Origin: Gloeocapsopsis sp. IPPAS B-1203
Lineage (GTDB): Bacteria > Cyanobacteriota > Cyanobacteriia > Cyanobacteriales > Chroococcidiopsidaceae
Assembly (NCBI RefSeq): GCF_002749975.1
Contig: NZ_PEIG01000005.1
Coordinates: 62,001-126,000 of the forward strand
Length of the DNA: 64,000 bases
Direction of reading: 5' to 3'
Shown piece by piece: positions 17,797 to 55,803 of this stretch (the first letter of the stretch is position 1; each line of letters begins with the position of its first letter). Both the position numbers and the translations under genes were made by a program. The notes beneath the pieces were generated by a model. It had not been told where the DNA came from, searched no databases, and saw only the letters and a list, made by a program, of their open reading frames with translations.

Positions 17797-18663
17797 TTAC
17801 TTAAGCAAAATAAATTCTTCAATTGCTGCTGCTGCACCATCTTCTTCAACACTCGGCGCTACCCAGTGGGCAATATTTTTAACTGCTGTCGGTGCATTAC
17901 CCATTGCAACGCCAACACCAGCGTATGCAAGCATCTCTACATCATTGAAATTATCACCAATTGTCATGACATTTGCAGCTTGGATACCTAAGCATTCTTC
18001 TGCTAAGTAACGTACGGCTGCTGCTTTGTTTACTAGAGGATTGGTTGCTTCAAAAAAAGTCGCAACGGATTTTGTCATGTACAGTTCAGCAGGCGTGTAG
18101 CGCTGCCGCAAGCTTCCTAAAAGACGATCGATCAAGACAACATCATCACTGAGTGCAAGCACTTTTGTTGGTTCATCTGCAAGAACTTGACGCAAGTCAC
18201 CAACAGCGATTGGTTCAATCCCAGAACGTTCTGAGTAGAGTTGAGTTTCTGATGTGAGTTCGCGCACATAGAGGCGATCGTTGATATAAAAGTGAACTGA
18301 TAATAGCGATCGCAGTTGGGGTTGTTCAAAGTAATCTAACAACTGGTACGCTGTTGCTTTCGCTACAGGTAAATGACGGTGAATTTTTTGCGTGTGGGGA
18401 TCTTGAATCCAGGCTCCTTGGTAAGCTAGTAATGGCATTGTCGAGCCAATATCTTGATGAAAGCGTAAAGCAGAGCAATACATTCGACCTGTAGCTAGTG
18501 CAACTTCAATGCCCTGGACTTTTGCTGCTTGGATCGCCTGACGTACAGCAGGGCGAATTGTGTTTGATTCTCCGGCGATCGTGCCATCAATATCGAGTAC
18601 AAGTAGTTTAATTGAAGTCTTAAAGAGTTTTGAGTTTTGAGTTTTGAGTTTTGAATTAGTCAT
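17797..18663 (-). CDS. Cof-type HAD-IIB phosphatase
   Basis: 288 residues from the ATG at 18663. HAD motif I is LLVLDIDGTIAG, motif II lies in VALATGRMYCSALRF, and motif IV is MTIGDNFNDVEMLAYAGVGV; the large C2-type cap between them is typical of Cof/YbiV sugar-phosphate or nucleotide-sugar phosphatases. The first residues (MTNSKLKTQNSKLF) are encoded by a tandem TTTTGAG heptamer repeat, so the conserved protein really begins about 17 residues in. A start further up at 18777 is possible but would translate non-conserved sequence. The substrate is unknown. Confidence 0.85.
   Translation of the reverse strand: MTNSKLKTQNSKLFKTSIKLLVLDIDGTIAGESNTIRPAVRQAIQAAKVQGIEVALATGRMYCSALRFHQDIGSTMPLLAYQGAWIQDPHTQKIHRHLPVAKATAYQLLDYFEQPQLRSLLSVHFYINDRLYVRELTSETQLYSERSGIEPIAVGDLRQVLADEPTKVLALSDDVVLIDRLLGSLRQRYTPAELYMTKSVATFFEATNPLVNKAAAVRYLAEECLGIQAANVMTIGDNFNDVEMLAYAGVGVAMGNAPTAVKNIAHWVAPSVEEDGAAAAIEEFILLK
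18629..18656. repeat. TTTTGAG heptamer repeat inside a coding start
   Basis: Four tandem copies of TTTTGAG, the last ending as TTTTGAA. The same unit recurs at 25598-25635 and 50199-50232. Here it is translated as the first residues of the HAD phosphatase. Confidence 0.8.
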
Positions 18664-18960
18664 TGGTAATGGGGTTGGAATAAAGTATAAATAAACTTCA
18701 CTTATGCTTGATACGTCTGGCAATACGTATTTTGGCAAAATACGATTTATCTTGTTATGCAAACGGTTAATAAACAATTATTCTGACATTTTTTACGCCC
18801 AAATTTTAAACCAATAAGGCAAAAATGTGTGGATTAGTTGTAGTAGGAAATACTTAATGTTGGCGTTTTCAATATCACAAAATCAGCTTAAAAGTAGATT
18901 CAAAAAATAGTAGAGATAGATACACTGAAGCAATTGCTTTTGGTATAGGAATAAATTAAT

Positions 18961-20250
18961 ATGCTGGGGATTGAGCGTTTTGGGATGCAAACAGCAGCCC
19001 ACGCAGATTCAGCGTTTCAGGGAGTATCAGTTGAGCCTTTAGTAACAACGCCTCCTGCTGCAGAATGTGAAATATGTGTTGTTGTACCAGTACGAGATGA
19101 AGCTGAACACTTAGTAGCTACACTCAATGCCTTAGCACATCAAATCGATCTACAAGGAAAACCACTACACTACAGCCGTTACGAGATTATTCTGCTTGCA
19201 AATAACTGCTGTGATGACTCTGCAGCGATCGCTCGCAAATTTGCCCAGCAACATTCATCGTTAGCACTGCACGTAGTAGAAATGACCTTATCCAAGCCCG
19301 AAGCTTATATTGGTAAAGTACGACGTATATTGATGCACGAAGCATATCGTCGCTTGATGGGTATCGGACGCAAGCGCGGTATCATTGCTTCAACCGATGG
19401 CGATACTCGCGTAGCACCGACTTGGATTGCTGCAACTATACAAGAAATAACTCATGGTGCGGATGCAGTCGGTGGGAGAATTATCACAGACCGTGCAGAA
19501 CGCAGTCATTTAGAACCCTATGCGCGATTGTGTCACTTGCGTGAGGTAGGCTATCGCTATTTACTAAGCGAACTCGAAACATATCTCGATCCTGAACCGT
19601 GCGAATGTTGGCCTCGGCATTATCAGCACTATGGTGCAAGTTTAGCCGTTACAGCGCAAATGTATGCTCGTGTAGGCGGTATGCCTGCGGTACGTACGCC
19701 GGAAGATGTCGCTTTTTATCAAGCACTGGTACGTGTAGATGCGAGGTTTCGTCATAGTCCAGCTGTGAAAGTGATTACCTCAGCACGACAAACAGGACGC
19801 GCCAACAATGGCTTAGCAAATCAGTTGCGTGAATGGGCAGTGATGGGACACCAGCATCAGCCGTTTATTGTAGAATCGGCAGCAATCAGCGAGCAACGGT
19901 TGCAAGCACGTCGTAAGTTACGGATGCTATGGATGCGATCGCGTATTCATCAACAATTAAACAACTATGAAATTGCACAATGTGCGCATGAATGGAAAGT
20001 TTCCCTTTCTTGGTTAACCGAAGAACTATCCCAGTCACCTACTTTTGGTTTATTGCTAGAACGAACCAAAGAAAAAACAGTTGAATTAGAAAGAGATGCT
20101 TACCAAGAAATTTCTCAGGCGATCGCCGATCTCCGATTGCGTTTAAGCAGTTTACGTCAAGCAGCAACTCATTTAAATTCGCTCGAACAAGTCAAGCCGA
20201 TATTGATCTTCCCGCCGTCCTCGCAAATGCCGCAAGTGCGAATCAGTTAG
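18961..20250 (+). CDS. Family 2 glycosyltransferase of a deacetylase/methyltransferase cluster
   Basis: 429 residues. A GT-A fold opens with VVVPVRDEAEHLVATLNAL (about 42-60), has LLANNCCDDSAAIA, and the metal-binding region IIASTDGDTRVAPTWIAATI. The acceptor side continues with YGASLAVTAQMYARVGGMP and TPEDVAFYQALVR. A helical C-terminal tail of about 130 residues lacks membrane segments, so it is a soluble transferase, not a NodC-like synthase. Its last 78 bases overlap, tail to tail, the NodS-like gene on the other strand. The convergent genes for deacetylase, methyltransferase and flavoprotein suggest one shared pathway. Donor and acceptor are unknown. Confidence 0.85.
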   Translation: MLGIERFGMQTAAHADSAFQGVSVEPLVTTPPAAECEICVVVPVRDEAEHLVATLNALAHQIDLQGKPLHYSRYEIILLANNCCDDSAAIARKFAQQHSSLALHVVEMTLSKPEAYIGKVRRILMHEAYRRLMGIGRKRGIIASTDGDTRVAPTWIAATIQEITHGADAVGGRIITDRAERSHLEPYARLCHLREVGYRYLLSELETYLDPEPCECWPRHYQHYGASLAVTAQMYARVGGMPAVRTPEDVAFYQALVRVDARFRHSPAVKVITSARQTGRANNGLANQLREWAVMGHQHQPFIVESAAISEQRLQARRKLRMLWMRSRIHQQLNNYEIAQCAHEWKVSLSWLTEELSQSPTFGLLLERTKEKTVELERDAYQEISQAIADLRLRLSSLRQAATHLNSLEQVKPILIFPPSSQMPQVRIS

Positions 20251-20769
20251 TTCCATAAACGAGTCATGAACTTCATCGCCCCATAAAGGGTAATCTTCTG
20301 CATATAGTGTCCAATGGACGAGAAGCAGATGCCCTCCTGATTCTAGATGCTCTAGGAGCAATTTTTGCGTTTTTCTTAAATCCTCCCAAGATAAGTAATA
20401 ACCAACTTCAGAAACTAAGGTCAAATCGAAATTCTGCGGCGGATAATCGCCAGGAACCTGCATTAATTGAAACTCAACGTGGGATAAGTGCTGACAGCGT
20501 TTAATCGCTCGATTCAAGGCAATTTCCGATGCATCAATTGATAAGAGGGAATCGCAGCGTTCGGCTAAACGCGAGGTGAGGACACCAATTGAACAACCAA
20601 TTTCGAGTGCACAGCGATAGCGTTGTCTAGGTAGTACAGCTAAGGTATTTGCATACTTATGCGCTTCGTACTCACTTGTTTCAAATTGCCACGGATCTTC
20701 ATCAGCAGTGTAGAGATCGTTAAAGTATTGAGGTTGCAGTGAGTTCATGTGTGGCTTTGGTTGATTCAT
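20173..20769 (-). CDS. NodS-like SAM-dependent methyltransferase
   Basis: 198 residues. The ATG at 20769 overlaps the stop of the PIG-L gene as ATGA, which decides the start. An N-terminal motif YFNDLYTADEDPWQFETSEY is characteristic of the NodS family. SAM motif I is ALEIGCSIGVLTSRLA; LTLVSEVGYYLSW and GGHLLLVHW follow. NodS N-methylates the deacetylated glucosamine end of Nod factors. Because a deacetylase is encoded immediately upstream, the substrate here could be a freed amino group on a sugar; that is inference. The stop TAA lies inside the glycosyltransferase gene on the opposite strand. Confidence 0.85.
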   Translation of the reverse strand: MNQPKPHMNSLQPQYFNDLYTADEDPWQFETSEYEAHKYANTLAVLPRQRYRCALEIGCSIGVLTSRLAERCDSLLSIDASEIALNRAIKRCQHLSHVEFQLMQVPGDYPPQNFDLTLVSEVGYYLSWEDLRKTQKLLLEHLESGGHLLLVHWTLYAEDYPLWGDEVHDSFMELTDSHLRHLRGRREDQYRLDLFERI

Positions 20770-21518
20770 TGCGTCTGCTCCAAGTAAAGCTCCCAAGAAT
20801 GGGCAAAGTGGGCTAGCATTTGAGGTGTCAAACGAAAACCTTCAGGGTCGTCGTCAATTAAATCTGTTGTTTGCGAACGATATGCTGCGATCGCCTGTTG
20901 TTTTAAATCGATAACTGTACTAATATCCAACCGCCACAGCTCAACATTTACAAGTAGTGTTGCATCTTTGCGTTGCAAGGGGTCCCAATCCCAAATCAAA
21001 TATTCAATTTGGCGCACAGACAAATTTGCAGTATGAATTGCGGCTGTCAGTAGTTCCCAAGTCGCACGGTGATCGGGGTGTGGATCGTACCGCCAAGGTA
21101 AAAAGAGCGCTCGGAAATTACGGCTTGATAAATAGTCGCGTAAGCAAGCCACAGCCGGCTCAAAATCTGAGGTATTTTTATGAGGAACAGCGCCATCTTG
21201 GAGGCGGAAAAATGTGACTGCATTAACACCAAGTATCGAAAGTGCTGTGCGAGTTTCACTTTCACGTAAGTCTCTTAAAGCTGGTGCTGGGTAGCGACGT
21301 GAGTTGGGATGCGATTGAGTCCCATCACTGATTACAAGTACCTCTACGGGGATACTAAGCTGCTGTAATAAAGCGATCGCACCACCACAACCGAGCGATT
21401 CATCATCAGGGTGCGGCGCGACAATGAGTGTAGAACCAAAATCAGCGATCGCCTTTGCTGGACGTAGTGGTATTTGTTCTGGGTTCGCTAATAATAGTTG
21501 CGGCACGATTGAAGTCAT
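20766..21518 (-). CDS. PIG-L (LmbE-type) zinc N-deacetylase
   Basis: 250 residues from the ATG at 21518, which overlaps the stop of the flavoprotein gene as ATGA; an in-frame ATG three codons up (21527) is possible. Zinc motifs are APHPDDESLGCGGAIALL (His-Pro-Asp-Asp) and DPHPDHRATWELL. The family removes acetyl groups from N-acetylglucosamine-containing lipids or pseudo-disaccharides, for example GlcNAc-PI and mycothiol precursors. It has no membrane segment. It is the middle gene of a translationally coupled trio. Confidence 0.9.
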   Translation of the reverse strand: MTSIVPQLLLANPEQIPLRPAKAIADFGSTLIVAPHPDDESLGCGGAIALLQQLSIPVEVLVISDGTQSHPNSRRYPAPALRDLRESETRTALSILGVNAVTFFRLQDGAVPHKNTSDFEPAVACLRDYLSSRNFRALFLPWRYDPHPDHRATWELLTAAIHTANLSVRQIEYLIWDWDPLQRKDATLLVNVELWRLDISTVIDLKQQAIAAYRSQTTDLIDDDPEGFRLTPQMLAHFAHSWELYLEQTQ

Positions 21519-22717
21519 AGCGTCCATAGCGAACTTGCGGTTTCACTAGATAGCGCATATTGCCCGATATTAGCGATCGCTGCATCAAACGCAGGTTGGC
21601 GCAGGTACAAAGTCAAGTCACGGATGACGCGTTCTATTGGTTGTGGTGGCAGTAATCCGCGAGTACCAACACAGCGTTCGCATAGTTGAATGACATTCAT
21701 ACAGATTTGCTCAATCGCAGTGCGTACCATATTGCCATAGGCAACAATTGTGCTTGCTTGGGGATGCTCATCAGCAGCATAACCACCAAAGACAGGTGCG
21801 TATTCATCCATTAAAGTTGCAGCACCGCGTAACCAAAGATGACCACTTTCGATAGCGATCGCCATTTGTCCTAGGCGTTCTTCTTGGTAAGGATCTTGAG
21901 TCCGATTGAGTGAGTGTAGGTATTCCCGCGTCAAATTAAATAAAGCTTCAGCACCACCAAGTTGCACCGCAGCAAAACGAATCACACCTCCTGTTAACCA
22001 CGGTTGACGGAAGTAATCGCCAGGATTGCCAATGACGTAGAGTGGATCGAGTTCCACACCTGTAAAATCTACTTTATAACTAGCCGATGCGCGCATTCCT
22101 GAAGGTTGCCACCAAGAAGGATCGACAATTGTCTGAACTTCATCCATTGGCACAATACACATTTGCCAACTACCATCTGGTAGTACTCCATTCACAAACG
22201 GACGTTCGACAAAACCACAACCCGAAGCAAAGGTTTTAGAACCTTCCAACCGACAATTGCCATTGTCTAAAGGAATGACTTTGACACCATCAGCGGCTTC
22301 AGCATTCCAAACACCAAAGATTTTATGGCGATCGCGTGCGGCTACAGCAAAGCTTTCAATTTGTTTTGGAGTTCCAAATGTGTTAATCAGTTGTAGTGCA
22401 TTAACGTGACCTTCATAAACGCGACCAACAGATAAATTACCACGACCTAGTTGTTTAAGTAGCAGCAACAATGGTAACGTTCCACCCGCTTGTGTACCTA
22501 AGCCTAATCCGCCCAATTCGCGAGGTAGCGGCGCGGTTAATAACCCCGCTTGCGCAATCAGTTCAAATTCTTTCGCGGGGAAGGCTCCGTGACAATCTAC
22601 CGCAGCAGCATTACTGAACGCAAAATCAGCAATATCTACAACCCGCGATAATATTTCTGTAATTGCTGGTTCGTGCCAACTATCAGGAATAACGCTGGGT
22701 GAAAGTTGTGTAATAAT
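21515..22717 (-). CDS. Acyl-CoA-dehydrogenase-fold flavoprotein
   Basis: About 400 residues. The N-terminal helical domain (FELIAQAGLLTAPLPRELGG), the beta domain (IFGVWNAEAADG, GSKTFASGCGFVERPFVNG) and the C-terminal helical domain (GGAEALFNLTREYLH, ending ERVIRDLTLYLRQPAFD) are present. The C-terminal RD...QPAFD pattern recalls DszC/HpaB-like monooxygenase members as much as true dehydrogenases, and I do not see a convincing catalytic Glu. The start is unusual: AAGGAGG (22729-22723) is followed by ATT at 22717 and 22714 with no ATG; a TTG at 22765 lacks a Shine-Dalgarno. The stop overlaps the PIG-L start. Confidence 0.75.
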   Translation of the reverse strand: MITQLSPSVIPDSWHEPAITEILSRVVDIADFAFSNAAAVDCHGAFPAKEFELIAQAGLLTAPLPRELGGLGLGTQAGGTLPLLLLLKQLGRGNLSVGRVYEGHVNALQLINTFGTPKQIESFAVAARDRHKIFGVWNAEAADGVKVIPLDNGNCRLEGSKTFASGCGFVERPFVNGVLPDGSWQMCIVPMDEVQTIVDPSWWQPSGMRASASYKVDFTGVELDPLYVIGNPGDYFRQPWLTGGVIRFAAVQLGGAEALFNLTREYLHSLNRTQDPYQEERLGQMAIAIESGHLWLRGAATLMDEYAPVFGGYAADEHPQASTIVAYGNMVRTAIEQICMNVIQLCERCVGTRGLLPPQPIERVIRDLTLYLRQPAFDAAIANIGQYALSSETASSLWTL

Positions 22718-22722
22718 ATTGT

Positions 22723-22729
22723 CCTCCTT
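22723..22729 (-). promoter_or_regulatory. Strong Shine-Dalgarno deciding a non-ATG start
   Basis: AAGGAGG on the minus strand, 5 and 8 bases before two in-frame ATT codons. No ATG, GTG or TTG lies at normal spacing; the only TTG nearby overlaps the motif itself. Confidence 0.55.
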
Positions 22730-22883
22730 CAAGTCTTCTGTGTAAACCCACCTACGATTGCACAACCAAAGGCTTTTTGGTATTTATTATCACTGTCTCA
22801 CTACAACTTATGTTCATTCCTGGGGTAGAGCTTGTATGAAGAGGGGTGAGCTGGGCGAATAAATTCGCTGGCTAAATAAACAA

Positions 22884-54091: not shown

Positions 54092-55018
54092 ATGAAGATA
54101 AGTGTTATTATTCCTTGTTATAATGCAGCAGAAACAATTGCTGTGCAACTAGAAGCACTGGCAACTCAAACATGGAAAGATGCGTGGGAAATTATTGTTG
54201 TTGATAATGGCTCCACGGATAATTCAGTTGCAATTGTTGAAAAATATCAAAAACAAATCCCAAACCTCCGGTTAATTCGTGCAAGCGATCGCCCTGGTGC
54301 TGCTTATGCACGCAATGCTGGTGTGAGAAACGCAACTGGAGAAGCACTATTATTTTGTGATGCTGACGATCAAGTTGAGTCAGGCTGGCTAAGTGCAATG
54401 GGAGAAGCACTTCTTAAGTATGATTTTGTGGCTGGACGATTTGATTACACTCAACTCAACGAGTCATGGCTAATTAACAGCGAGATCTTTCAGGTTCAAA
54501 AAGCTGGACTTTCGCAGTATGAGTTTTCACCTTATTTACCTTTTGCTGGAAGTGGAAATCTTGGTATTAAAAAAGTATTACATCAAGCTGTGGACGGATT
54601 TAACGAAAACTTAATATATGCCGAAGATACTGACTATTGTTTCAGGGTTCAGCTAACAGGTACTCAACTGCATTTCATTGAAGATGCTGTAGCTCAAATT
54701 CGCCTGCGCCATACATTAAAAGATATTCATAAACAAGGAAAAAATTGGGCTGAAAGCCATATCTACCTCCGCTTACTATATGGCATTTCACTTAGTAATT
54801 TTGTAGTATTTGGTTATCTAATAAAGGTTTTATTATATCCCATAAAAATTATCTTTTACCTTAAAAATAAAAGTAGATTTGCAGAATGGGTGTGGATACT
54901 TGGTTGGAATATTGGAATTTTAAAAGGAAGTATTAAGTATTCTCAGAATATGACATTTAAAAATAATGTACTGGCGAAGAACAATAATCAAAAAGTAAAA
55001 ATTATTACAGCTAATTAG
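54092..55018 (+). CDS. Family 2 glycosyltransferase
   Basis: 308 residues. KISVIIPCYNAAETIAVQLE, EIIVVDNGSTDNSVAIVEKY and EALLFCDADDQVESGWLSAM (DxD) form the GT-A core. SGNLGIKKVLHQAVDGFNEN and EDTDYCFRVQL form the acceptor side. Two hydrophobic segments near the C-terminus (LSNFVVFGYLIKVLLYPIKI; FAEWVWILGWNIGILKG) suggest membrane contact. The gene is AT-rich. A PIG-L deacetylase starts five bases after its stop, so the two are coupled and probably modify one glycan or glycolipid. Confidence 0.88.
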   Translation: MKISVIIPCYNAAETIAVQLEALATQTWKDAWEIIVVDNGSTDNSVAIVEKYQKQIPNLRLIRASDRPGAAYARNAGVRNATGEALLFCDADDQVESGWLSAMGEALLKYDFVAGRFDYTQLNESWLINSEIFQVQKAGLSQYEFSPYLPFAGSGNLGIKKVLHQAVDGFNENLIYAEDTDYCFRVQLTGTQLHFIEDAVAQIRLRHTLKDIHKQGKNWAESHIYLRLLYGISLSNFVVFGYLIKVLLYPIKIIFYLKNKSRFAEWVWILGWNIGILKGSIKYSQNMTFKNNVLAKNNNQKVKIITAN

Positions 55019-55023
55019 AAAAT

Positions 55024-55803
55024 ATGTTGATTAACAAATACTATCAAAAAATCAAACAGCGGTTACTCTTAAAATCTCGATTTATTTATTTATGGTGGTT
55101 GTACAAGAAAAGCAAAGCGATCGCCTCGAATCAAAAATCAGCAATCGTCTTTGCACCCCACCAAGATGATGAAACATTAGGTTGTGGTGGCGCAATTGCT
55201 TTAAAGTGCGAGCAGGGAGTTCCCTTAGATGTTGTATTTTTAACAGATGGTAGGGCATCCTATGCAGATTATCCGCAAATTTGCCCCGATCAGTTAGTAC
55301 AAACTCGTCAACAAGAAGCGATCGCCGCCCTTAAAACTCTTGGTGTTTTGCCATCTGCAATTCACTTTCTTGGCAAACCTGATGGTGGTTTATTGCAATT
55401 ATCTGCCAGAGAACGTCAGCAAACTATTGATCAACTAGTACAGTTGTTACGCGATCGCCAACCGCAAGAGGTGTACATACCCTATAAACAAGATATTCAC
55501 CCTGACCATAAAGAGACTTATGCTTTAGTACAAGCTGCAGTGCAAAAAACAAACTTATCTATTGAAGTGTTGCAGTATCCTGTATGGACGCGTTGGGTAC
55601 CACATCAACTTGATTTCAAATCAGTAGAGCTTGCCAACGTATATAGATTACCAATTAATAATGTCATCAACAAAAAAATTAAGGCTTTAGAAGCTTATCA
55701 ATCGCAGTACTCTAGTGTAGTTCCTGGGATTGAACCAATTCTGCCATCAGGTTTTATGCAATGTTTCTTTTCTCCATACGAAATCTTTTTCAAAGCATCG
55801 TAA
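55024..55803 (+). CDS. PIG-L (LmbE-type) zinc N-deacetylase, second copy
   Basis: 259 residues. A basic N-terminal stretch with a short hydrophobic part (RFIYLWWLYKK) precedes VFAPHQDDETLGCGGAIAL, where Gln replaces the usual Pro after His, and YIPYKQDIHPDHKETYALVQ. Zinc ligands are present. It follows the GT2 gene by five bases. It differs clearly from the deacetylase at 20766-21518, so it is a separate paralogue, not a recent duplication. Confidence 0.9.
   Translation: MLINKYYQKIKQRLLLKSRFIYLWWLYKKSKAIASNQKSAIVFAPHQDDETLGCGGAIALKCEQGVPLDVVFLTDGRASYADYPQICPDQLVQTRQQEAIAALKTLGVLPSAIHFLGKPDGGLLQLSARERQQTIDQLVQLLRDRQPQEVYIPYKQDIHPDHKETYALVQAAVQKTNLSIEVLQYPVWTRWVPHQLDFKSVELANVYRLPINNVINKKIKALEAYQSQYSSVVPGIEPILPSGFMQCFFSPYEIFFKAS

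Follow-up and report, generated by a model that had tools for sequence, protein, structure and literature searches.

A conserved, patchily distributed four-gene cassette of the cyanobacterium Gloeocapsopsis sp. IPPAS B-1203 that may build an N-methylated amino-sugar conjugate and probably includes an AUU-initiated flavoprotein gene

We analyzed four adjoining genes in a 64,000-nucleotide stretch of the genome of the cyanobacterium Gloeocapsopsis sp. IPPAS B-1203 (assembly GCF_002749975.1, contig NZ_PEIG01000005.1, positions 62,001 to 126,000 of the forward strand); this whole stretch is called the window, and coordinates without a locus label are positions in it. On the plus strand lies a gene for a soluble GT2 glycosyltransferase (GT; 18961-20250, 429 amino acids [aa]; PF00535, 35.5 bits in Pfam). 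The minus strand carries a NodS-like, S-adenosylmethionine-dependent N-methyltransferase (MT; 20173-20769, 198 aa; PF05401 NodS, 65.2 bits against a cut-off of 24), a PIG-L (LmbE) deacetylase with HPDD and HPDH motifs (20766-21518, 250 aa; PF02585, 83.2 bits against a cut-off of 28.2), and a flavoprotein of the acyl-CoA-dehydrogenase fold (ACAD; open frame 21515-22765, 416 aa; PF02771, PF08028, and PF00441 at 31 to 36 bits). These are the four families that an earlier note on this DNA, made from its letters alone, had named, and Pfam bears them out. The layout described there is also present: ATGA stop/start overlaps lead from ACAD to PIG-L (21515-21518, minus strand) and from PIG-L to MT (20766-20769, minus strand), and the GT gene converges on the minus-strand genes, sharing 78 bases tail to tail with MT (20173-20250, a feature assigned to no strand). 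No other open reading frame of at least 90 aa lies between the four genes. The window ACAD is 99% identical to its homologue in G. crepidinum (L003). Since the gene order is conserved far beyond the genus, the grouping is not due to chance, and it is confirmed that the four genes form one real unit.

Scanning with the ACAD protein yielded 63 genome loci, mostly cyanobacterial by title (L059 is labelled Verrucomicrobia and L064 Catalimonadaceae), in which MT, PIG-L, and GT were sought with profiles built from a subset of these loci. MT was present in 61 of the 63, with L035 and L063 showing ACAD alone on the available stretch. PIG-L accompanied 60 of the 61 MT-bearing loci, always in the order ACAD-PIG-L-MT on one strand and in a few cases with inserted genes; GT was found in 47 of these 61, and several contigs end early. 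The gene-neighborhood search that the earlier note had suggested finds the genes together in relatives, not scattered. Among 291 cyanobacterial genomes drawn regardless of their neighbors, seven, including the window's own, carry ACAD (E ≤ 1e-60), and this rarity of the cassette in cyanobacteria counts against the broader interpretation developed below. A second draw, of 386 genomes around the L038 genome, came from the same phylum, because six places already found came back; all nine of its strong ACAD matches (L080 to L088, which include the L038 genome itself) adjoin PIG-L and MT, with the same gene order retained. The L038 contig is titled Tatlockia sp. and bears a cassette of cyanobacterial type, so that the title looks wrong. 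Draws centered on L059 and L064 gave two positives each, among 145 and 148 genomes, respectively (centers counted); three of these four positives have PIG-L and MT, and L059/L091 has MT without PIG-L. Because few genomes were positive in these draws and PIG-L and MT stand beside most ACAD matches, the cassette is patchy in its distribution yet nearly always complete.

The trio of ACAD, deacetylase, and MT also occurs on plasmid records of Deinococcus, Acinetobacter, Comamonas, Bradyrhizobium, Sulfitobacter, Roseivivax, Roseomonas, Komagataeibacter, Sphingobium, Novosphingobium, Sphingomonas, Jiella, Paracoccus, Rubrobacter, and Kitasatospora. From 83 plasmid records with a flavoprotein match, 18 annotated cassette loci were hand-picked for diversity; the Comamonas flavoprotein fell below the 60-bit profile limit and was placed by annotation and alignment. 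A profile search did not find GT on the stretches from D. radiodurans (L068) and Roseomonas (L074), and 10 of 12 plasmid-locus GT proteins, among them those of Deinococcus, Komagataeibacter, Bradyrhizobium, Rubrobacter, Acinetobacter, and Comamonas, match the window GT in BLASTP. Of the 64 loci that bear both GT and MT, 46 have the two genes convergent, and in 19 of these 46 they overlap by 4 to 95 bp (cyanobacteria, Deinococcus, Komagataeibacter, Jiella, and L064). When the four proteins are compared over 57 loci, their pairwise distances show correlations of 0.90 to 0.96, against permutation maxima of 0.35 to 0.41, values that also contain the shared history of the species; L003, L007, L014, L035, L041, L063, L065, and loci missing any of the four proteins were left out of this comparison.

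The chemistry of the sugar-modifying enzymes can be read from several of these loci. PIG-L and MT are fused in a single open frame in L055 (3157-4518, titled Gloeobacterales), one instance of the PIG-L/methyltransferase fusions that the earlier note had mentioned from other bacteria. In Rubrobacter (L070), a profile search for PIG-L found none, and the neighbor of ACAD and MT there is a polysaccharide deacetylase of PF01522, the family of NodB. The closest solved relatives of PIG-L are diacetylchitobiose deacetylases, with BshB weaker (PDB), and H36, D38, H147, D149, and H150 are invariant across 16 sequences, with D39 nearly so; we take these conserved His and Asp residues to be metal-binding or catalytic. 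For MT, the nearest solved structures by PDB profile are 4isc (an unnamed methyltransferase), NodS (3ofj), and phosphoethanolamine N-methyltransferases. Given the L055 fusion, the NodB-type deacetylase of Rubrobacter, and the N-methyltransferases among the nearest structures, N-deacetylation followed by N-methylation of an amino sugar is the best supported reading of the PIG-L/MT pair. The conserved gene order, the fusion, and the Rubrobacter deacetylase likewise lend good support to the joint action and the N-methylated amino-sugar conjugate that the earlier note had proposed. The GT shows no membrane helix by hydropathy (maximum over 19 residues, 1.22), nor do the four cassette proteins show a clear one by this measure. 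Counting against a closer reading of its role, Foldseek matches of the GT model are confined to generic GT2 folds (template-modeling [TM] scores of ∼0.3 to 0.4 to the query), and an assignment of the sugar donor from the fold was dropped on that ground. In some Nostocales a HAD domain precedes MT in frame (seven loci seen, ten by frame length; the frame was verified with Pfam in L022), an arrangement that recalls the phosphatase step of mycothiol synthesis. A HAD gene (17797-18777) adjoins the GT gene in the window and is a candidate fifth member of the cassette.

The earlier note had called the flavoprotein an ACAD-fold oxidase. The fold stands, by Pfam domains and Foldseek alike, and both profile and fold place the protein nearer to monooxygenases than to dehydrogenases. 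A 17-sequence ACAD profile matched DszC best (E 2.7e-29), followed by TdsC (1.3e-22) and methanesulfinate monooxygenase (1.3e-21), with butyryl-CoA dehydrogenase 4u83 (2.7e-15) and a short-chain dehydrogenase (1.8e-14) behind; DszC and TdsC also hold ranks 1 to 9 among Foldseek matches to the predicted model (mean predicted local distance difference test score, 77). In an alignment of 33 ACAD sequences (17 from genome loci and 16 from plasmids, numbered by the 416-aa open frame), H120, W153, K177, and Q390 are invariant, and S181, aligned with DszC Ser163, is Ser or Thr. None of the 33 has Glu at positions 389 to 391, presumably the place where acyl-CoA dehydrogenases carry their catalytic Glu base; the window loop there reads RDLTLYLRQP, and position 394 is Asp or Glu in 32 of the 33. 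Several observations weigh on the other side: dehydrogenase folds are near (TM 0.75, against 0.78 for DszC/TdsC), the NCBIfam DszC cut-off is missed widely (65.1 against 850 bits), DszC Asn129 has no counterpart and aligns with Val152, loop 391-402 is poorly modelled, and amino-sugar nitrososynthases match the profile less well (4.7e-11 and 1.8e-10) than ordinary dehydrogenases do. On balance, the profile and fold comparisons suggest that the flavoprotein is likely to act as a monooxygenase, and N-oxygenation is possible, the freed and methylated amine being one candidate target. A related but distinct flavoprotein family (∼200 bits) occurs in two cyanobacterial genomes (L089:1480-2700 and L090:1477-2697); on their 4-kb stretches there is neither PIG-L nor MT, and no cassette.

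The start of the flavoprotein gene appears to be unusual. The span given in the earlier note runs to TTG 22765, which is probably not the start; the evidence favors an ATT (AUU) codon at 22715-22717 (minus strand), preceded at 5 nucleotides (nt) by the Shine-Dalgarno sequence AAGGAGG (22723-22729, minus strand), a combination that occurs only once in the genome. This start would give a monooxygenase-like protein of 400 aa (21515-22717, minus strand), for which DszC and TdsC are the best matches by profile and fold. Many cyanobacterial loci have a conserved ACAD N terminus without ATG, GTG, or TTG. In 26 of the 58 loci where an FPxxEF motif was found (window counted; six loci lack the motif), ATT (22 loci) or ATC (4 loci) stands at the homologous place, 36 to 42 codons before the motif; a ribosome site of the form AAGGAG, AGGAGG, or similar lies 4 to 10 nt upstream of this codon, which is mostly followed by codons for x-x-Q/E-L. 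These 26 include the window, L003, loci of Nostocales, Pleurocapsa, Myxosarcina, Leptolyngbya, and Nodosilinea types, and L055. The stretch from the in-frame stop up to the motif lacks ATG, GTG, and TTG altogether in ten of them (L005, L006, L007, L009, L013, L014, L016, L019, L037, and L062); there, a canonical start would remove the first helix of the model. Where the codon stands at -40 (14 loci), the third codon positions are the most variable after ATT/ATC (0.32, versus 0.19 and 0.22) and are not so before it (0.31, versus 0.37 and 0.31).

Speaking against an AUU start, 16 of the 26 loci, the window included, have some in-frame ATG, GTG, or TTG before the motif, and in the window TTG codons at 22765 and 22732, in frame upstream of ATT, are possible starts. 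Among the 32 loci without the AUU/AUC signal, 21 have GTG or ATG at -37 to -45, including ATG at -43 to -45 in five Calothrix-type loci. L030 was dropped from the count, as its ATC with ribosome site is directly followed by TTG. Four loci (L047, L049, L050, and L053) have an in-frame ATG 8 to 14 codons upstream of ATT/ATC; they were counted together with L043 and L048, because the latter two retain the ribosome site with no in-frame ATG upstream. Taken together, these sequence patterns indicate that the ACAD gene probably starts at AUU, 22715-22717. AUU starts are known in infC and pcnB of Escherichia coli, and initiation factor 3 (IF3) discriminates against such starts; to our knowledge, the list of natural AUU-start genes is very short. 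The cassette gene resembles these E. coli genes in combining AUU with a strong ribosome site and differs in belonging to biosynthesis; the infC gene of the window genome itself appears to start at GTG. Through a conserved AUU/AUC start, that list would gain a biosynthetic gene, one that gene callers restricted to ATG, GTG, and TTG would misannotate.

Outside cyanobacteria, the neighborhood of the cassette offers a hint of its role. In 10 of the 18 annotated loci (L070, L071, L072, L073, L095, L096, L098, L099, L102, and L106), a gene for catalase, trehalose synthesis, Dps, or Ku/LigD is found no more than 10 kb away; catalase is close to the cassette in several plasmid loci, and in Comamonas the four cassette genes are nested between otsA and otsB. 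The same plasmids also supplied six control stretches of 40 kb, which held a single stress gene, i.e., 1 of 12 segments of 20 kb (Fisher p = 0.018 versus 10/18), a comparison in which all six control plasmids are positive cases and the 18 loci include three from Deinococcus and two from Sphingomonas. Four records were left out of the count: Methylobacterium FF17 L075, which has just the flavoprotein; Leisingera L103, which has just a PIG-L homologue; Paraburkholderia L105, which has MT and GT alone and a catalase-family gene near them; and Acinetobacter baumannii L107, which has no gene table. In the last record, homologues of the four window genes directly follow one another, at 26 to 39% identity, and Table 2 of PMC5660220 lists ACICU_02432-02435 of A. 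baumannii as one operon of a glycosyltransferase, a SAM methyltransferase, an LmbE protein, and an acyl-CoA-dehydrogenase-related protein, reduced 31- to 62-fold in two colistin-dependent mutants. The reduced genes of the same table include trehalose-6-phosphate synthase and phosphatase (otsAB) and a catalase. In 10 alphaproteobacterial loci, an EcfG-type motif (GGAAC-N15-19-GTT), such as would mark promoters of the alphaproteobacterial general stress regulon, precedes 4 of 15 cassette units by no more than 200 bp (11 are without; 0.23 expected, P = 1e-4), a P value that is flattering, since a first pass with 400 bp found 3 of 14 units and the three GT units were added afterwards. Sites of this shape occur in PMC6599016 on Sphingomonas melonis.

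Other facts caution against a stress function. Eight of the 18 loci (L068, L069, L074, L097, L100, L101, L104, and L114) have no stress neighbor, the list of stress genes was picked after inspection, and the loci were hand-chosen. Catalase or Dps homologues occur in just 4 of the 63 genome-scan loci (L016, L032, L045, and L058), and the A. baumannii operon fell among 33 reduced genes in all, as tabulated in PMC5660220. In the window, no catalase or Dps gene stands beside the cassette. We conclude that a stress or desiccation program may include the cassette in at least some non-cyanobacterial hosts; for cyanobacteria, where the link is not visible, homology would be the basis for suggesting such a role.

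Compared with known systems, the cassette works partly like Nod-factor and mycothiol-type assembly and belongs to neither. It shares with nodB, nodC, and nodS the sequence of glycosyl transfer, N-deacetylation, and N-methylation, its MT falls in the Pfam family NodS, and the Rubrobacter version uses a deacetylase of NodB's own family. It differs in having a soluble GT2 instead of a NodC-type, membrane-bound, processive chitooligosaccharide synthase, in the window PIG-L (PF02585) standing in for NodB (PF01522), and in the extra flavoprotein. The label "Nod-factor-like" given in the earlier note therefore applies to two or three chemical steps and not to the pathway: the GT is soluble, MT reaches 74.8 bits against the cut-off of 300 of the NCBIfam NodS equivalog, and none of the 18 annotated loci has a product named NodA, for which no profile search was made. 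On the soluble GT and the missed NodS cut-off, membership in the Nod-factor pathway was rejected. Mycothiol and bacillithiol synthesis (MshA/MshB and BshA/BshB) likewise joins a glycosyltransferase to a PIG-L deacetylase, and BshB1 and BshB2 are the best NCBIfam models for the window PIG-L, with scores below the equivalog cut-offs (63.2 versus 182.5 and 56.7 versus 195 bits; MshB, 19.5 versus 224). Here, however, the glycosyltransferase is GT2 rather than GT4, and methylation and oxidation would take the place of the later steps; no cysteine ligase (MshC/BshC) is annotated beside the 18 cassettes, and no profile search for one was made. The flavoprotein resembles DszC-type enzymes, its best profile and fold matches, more than nitrososynthases (DnmZ and relatives), and differs from DszC, MsuC, and the nitrososynthases in scoring far below their equivalog cut-offs and in its own invariant H120, W153, and Q390. 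The A. baumannii operon has the same four families in the same order and is co-regulated with otsAB and catalase (PMC5660220, Table 2), where the section with the table names no function for it; unlike in the window, all four genes lie on one strand (L107). Open-licence full-text articles, represented mostly by listings and the beginnings of abstracts, gave no description of the cassette and no assigned product; PMC5660220 tabulates the operon, and the cassette genes do not appear together in the accessible parts of PMC13130816 (Acinetobacter Tol 5) or PMC6599016.

The explanation we favor, which we hold to be somewhat better than an even bet, is that the four genes are a conserved, patchy biosynthetic cassette for one glycoconjugate, linked to stress in some hosts and with an ACAD gene started at AUU/AUC. 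The likely product is an N-methylated, possibly N-oxygenated amino-sugar conjugate. In this scheme, GT2 would transfer an N-acetylated amino sugar to an acceptor, PIG-L would then take off the acetyl group, and the NodS-like MT would methylate the freed amine, the latter two steps being the ones that the fusion and the Rubrobacter locus support. The flavoprotein, as a flavin-dependent monooxygenase, may oxidize the product, perhaps at the N-methyl amine. The logic would be akin to that of mycothiol and bacillithiol assembly, with the amine capped by a methyl group and perhaps oxygen instead of cysteine, and the AUU/AUC start in many cyanobacteria might keep the flavoprotein level low and sensitive to IF3. 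A bolder version, which we regard as speculative and improbable, is that the product is an N-methyl, N-oxygenated amino-sugar glycoside (a hydroxylamine or nitrone) that represents a new class of redox or desiccation protectant, spread across phyla, its cyanobacterial flavoenzyme held down by AUU and responsive to IF3. The four-enzyme pathway, kept from cyanobacteria to Deinococcus and Acinetobacter, has trehalose and catalase genes as neighbors or co-regulated partners in several hosts and matters beyond this locus: with its product named, a stress metabolite common to these hosts could come to light, and many genes labelled "acyl-CoA dehydrogenase," "PIG-L," or "methyltransferase" could be accounted for.

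The nearest competitor overlaps with this explanation, in that the pathway would be the same and the flavoprotein would act on the sugar or aglycone as a carbon oxidase or dehydrogenase, with no N-oxygenation. The ACAD fold serves both reaction types, the DszC-like residues are partly conserved, and dehydrogenase folds score close; given that the nearest solved relatives by both profile and fold are monooxygenases, we consider it unlikely, if still to be taken seriously. We find it rather unlikely, too, that the cassette builds or decorates a unit of a cell-envelope glycolipid or exopolysaccharide, with the flavoprotein modifying an acyl chain or sugar carbon and the stress link reflecting envelope remodelling. 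An extra GT4, a GT28-like protein (no Pfam match), and a second GT2 in Sphingobium, Novosphingobium, Jiella, and Cf. Phormidesmis (L042, L095, L099, and L100, i.e., two sphingomonads, Jiella, and one cyanobacterium) would fit that idea, as would the GT4 and UDP-galactopyranose mutase that follow the cassette on two Deinococcus plasmids (L069:12769-15004 and L106:15854-18161) and the origin of the A. baumannii co-regulation in colistin-dependent mutants (PMC5660220, Table 2). However, homologues of the extra trio occur in just four of the searched loci, the four cassette proteins lack a clear membrane helix by hydropathy, and the flavoprotein lacks Glu at the usual acyl-CoA-dehydrogenase position. 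That the genes serve to detoxify or catabolize an external amino-sugar compound seems very improbable: transporters of the MFS type lie within ∼4 kb of the cassette in L071, L072, and L073, and efflux genes are near it in L072, L074, and L102, but a glycosyltransferase and translational coupling suit synthesis better, as does the co-regulation with trehalose synthesis that PMC5660220 tabulates for A. baumannii. The adjacency of four unrelated genes by chance in the window genome has practically no likelihood left, being refuted by the order kept in very distant bacteria and by the gene fusions.

Further observations concern the surroundings of the cassette and its variants. The window contains a second pair of GT2 and PIG-L genes (54092-55803, plus strand), which accounts for the other PIG-L match of the genome; its 3.4-kb stretch has no MT or ACAD match, and its GT scores weakly (39 bits) against the cassette GT profile. 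The Deinococcus ACAD proteins (L068:8762-11101, L069:7702-10050, and L106:10780-13143) carry an extra N-terminal domain of ∼400 residues, which has no Pfam match (L068) and looks like a clan-A glycoside hydrolase. In both Acinetobacter loci, a divergent DUF2171 gene lies upstream of the cassette (L071:6718-6951 and L107:11307-11540).

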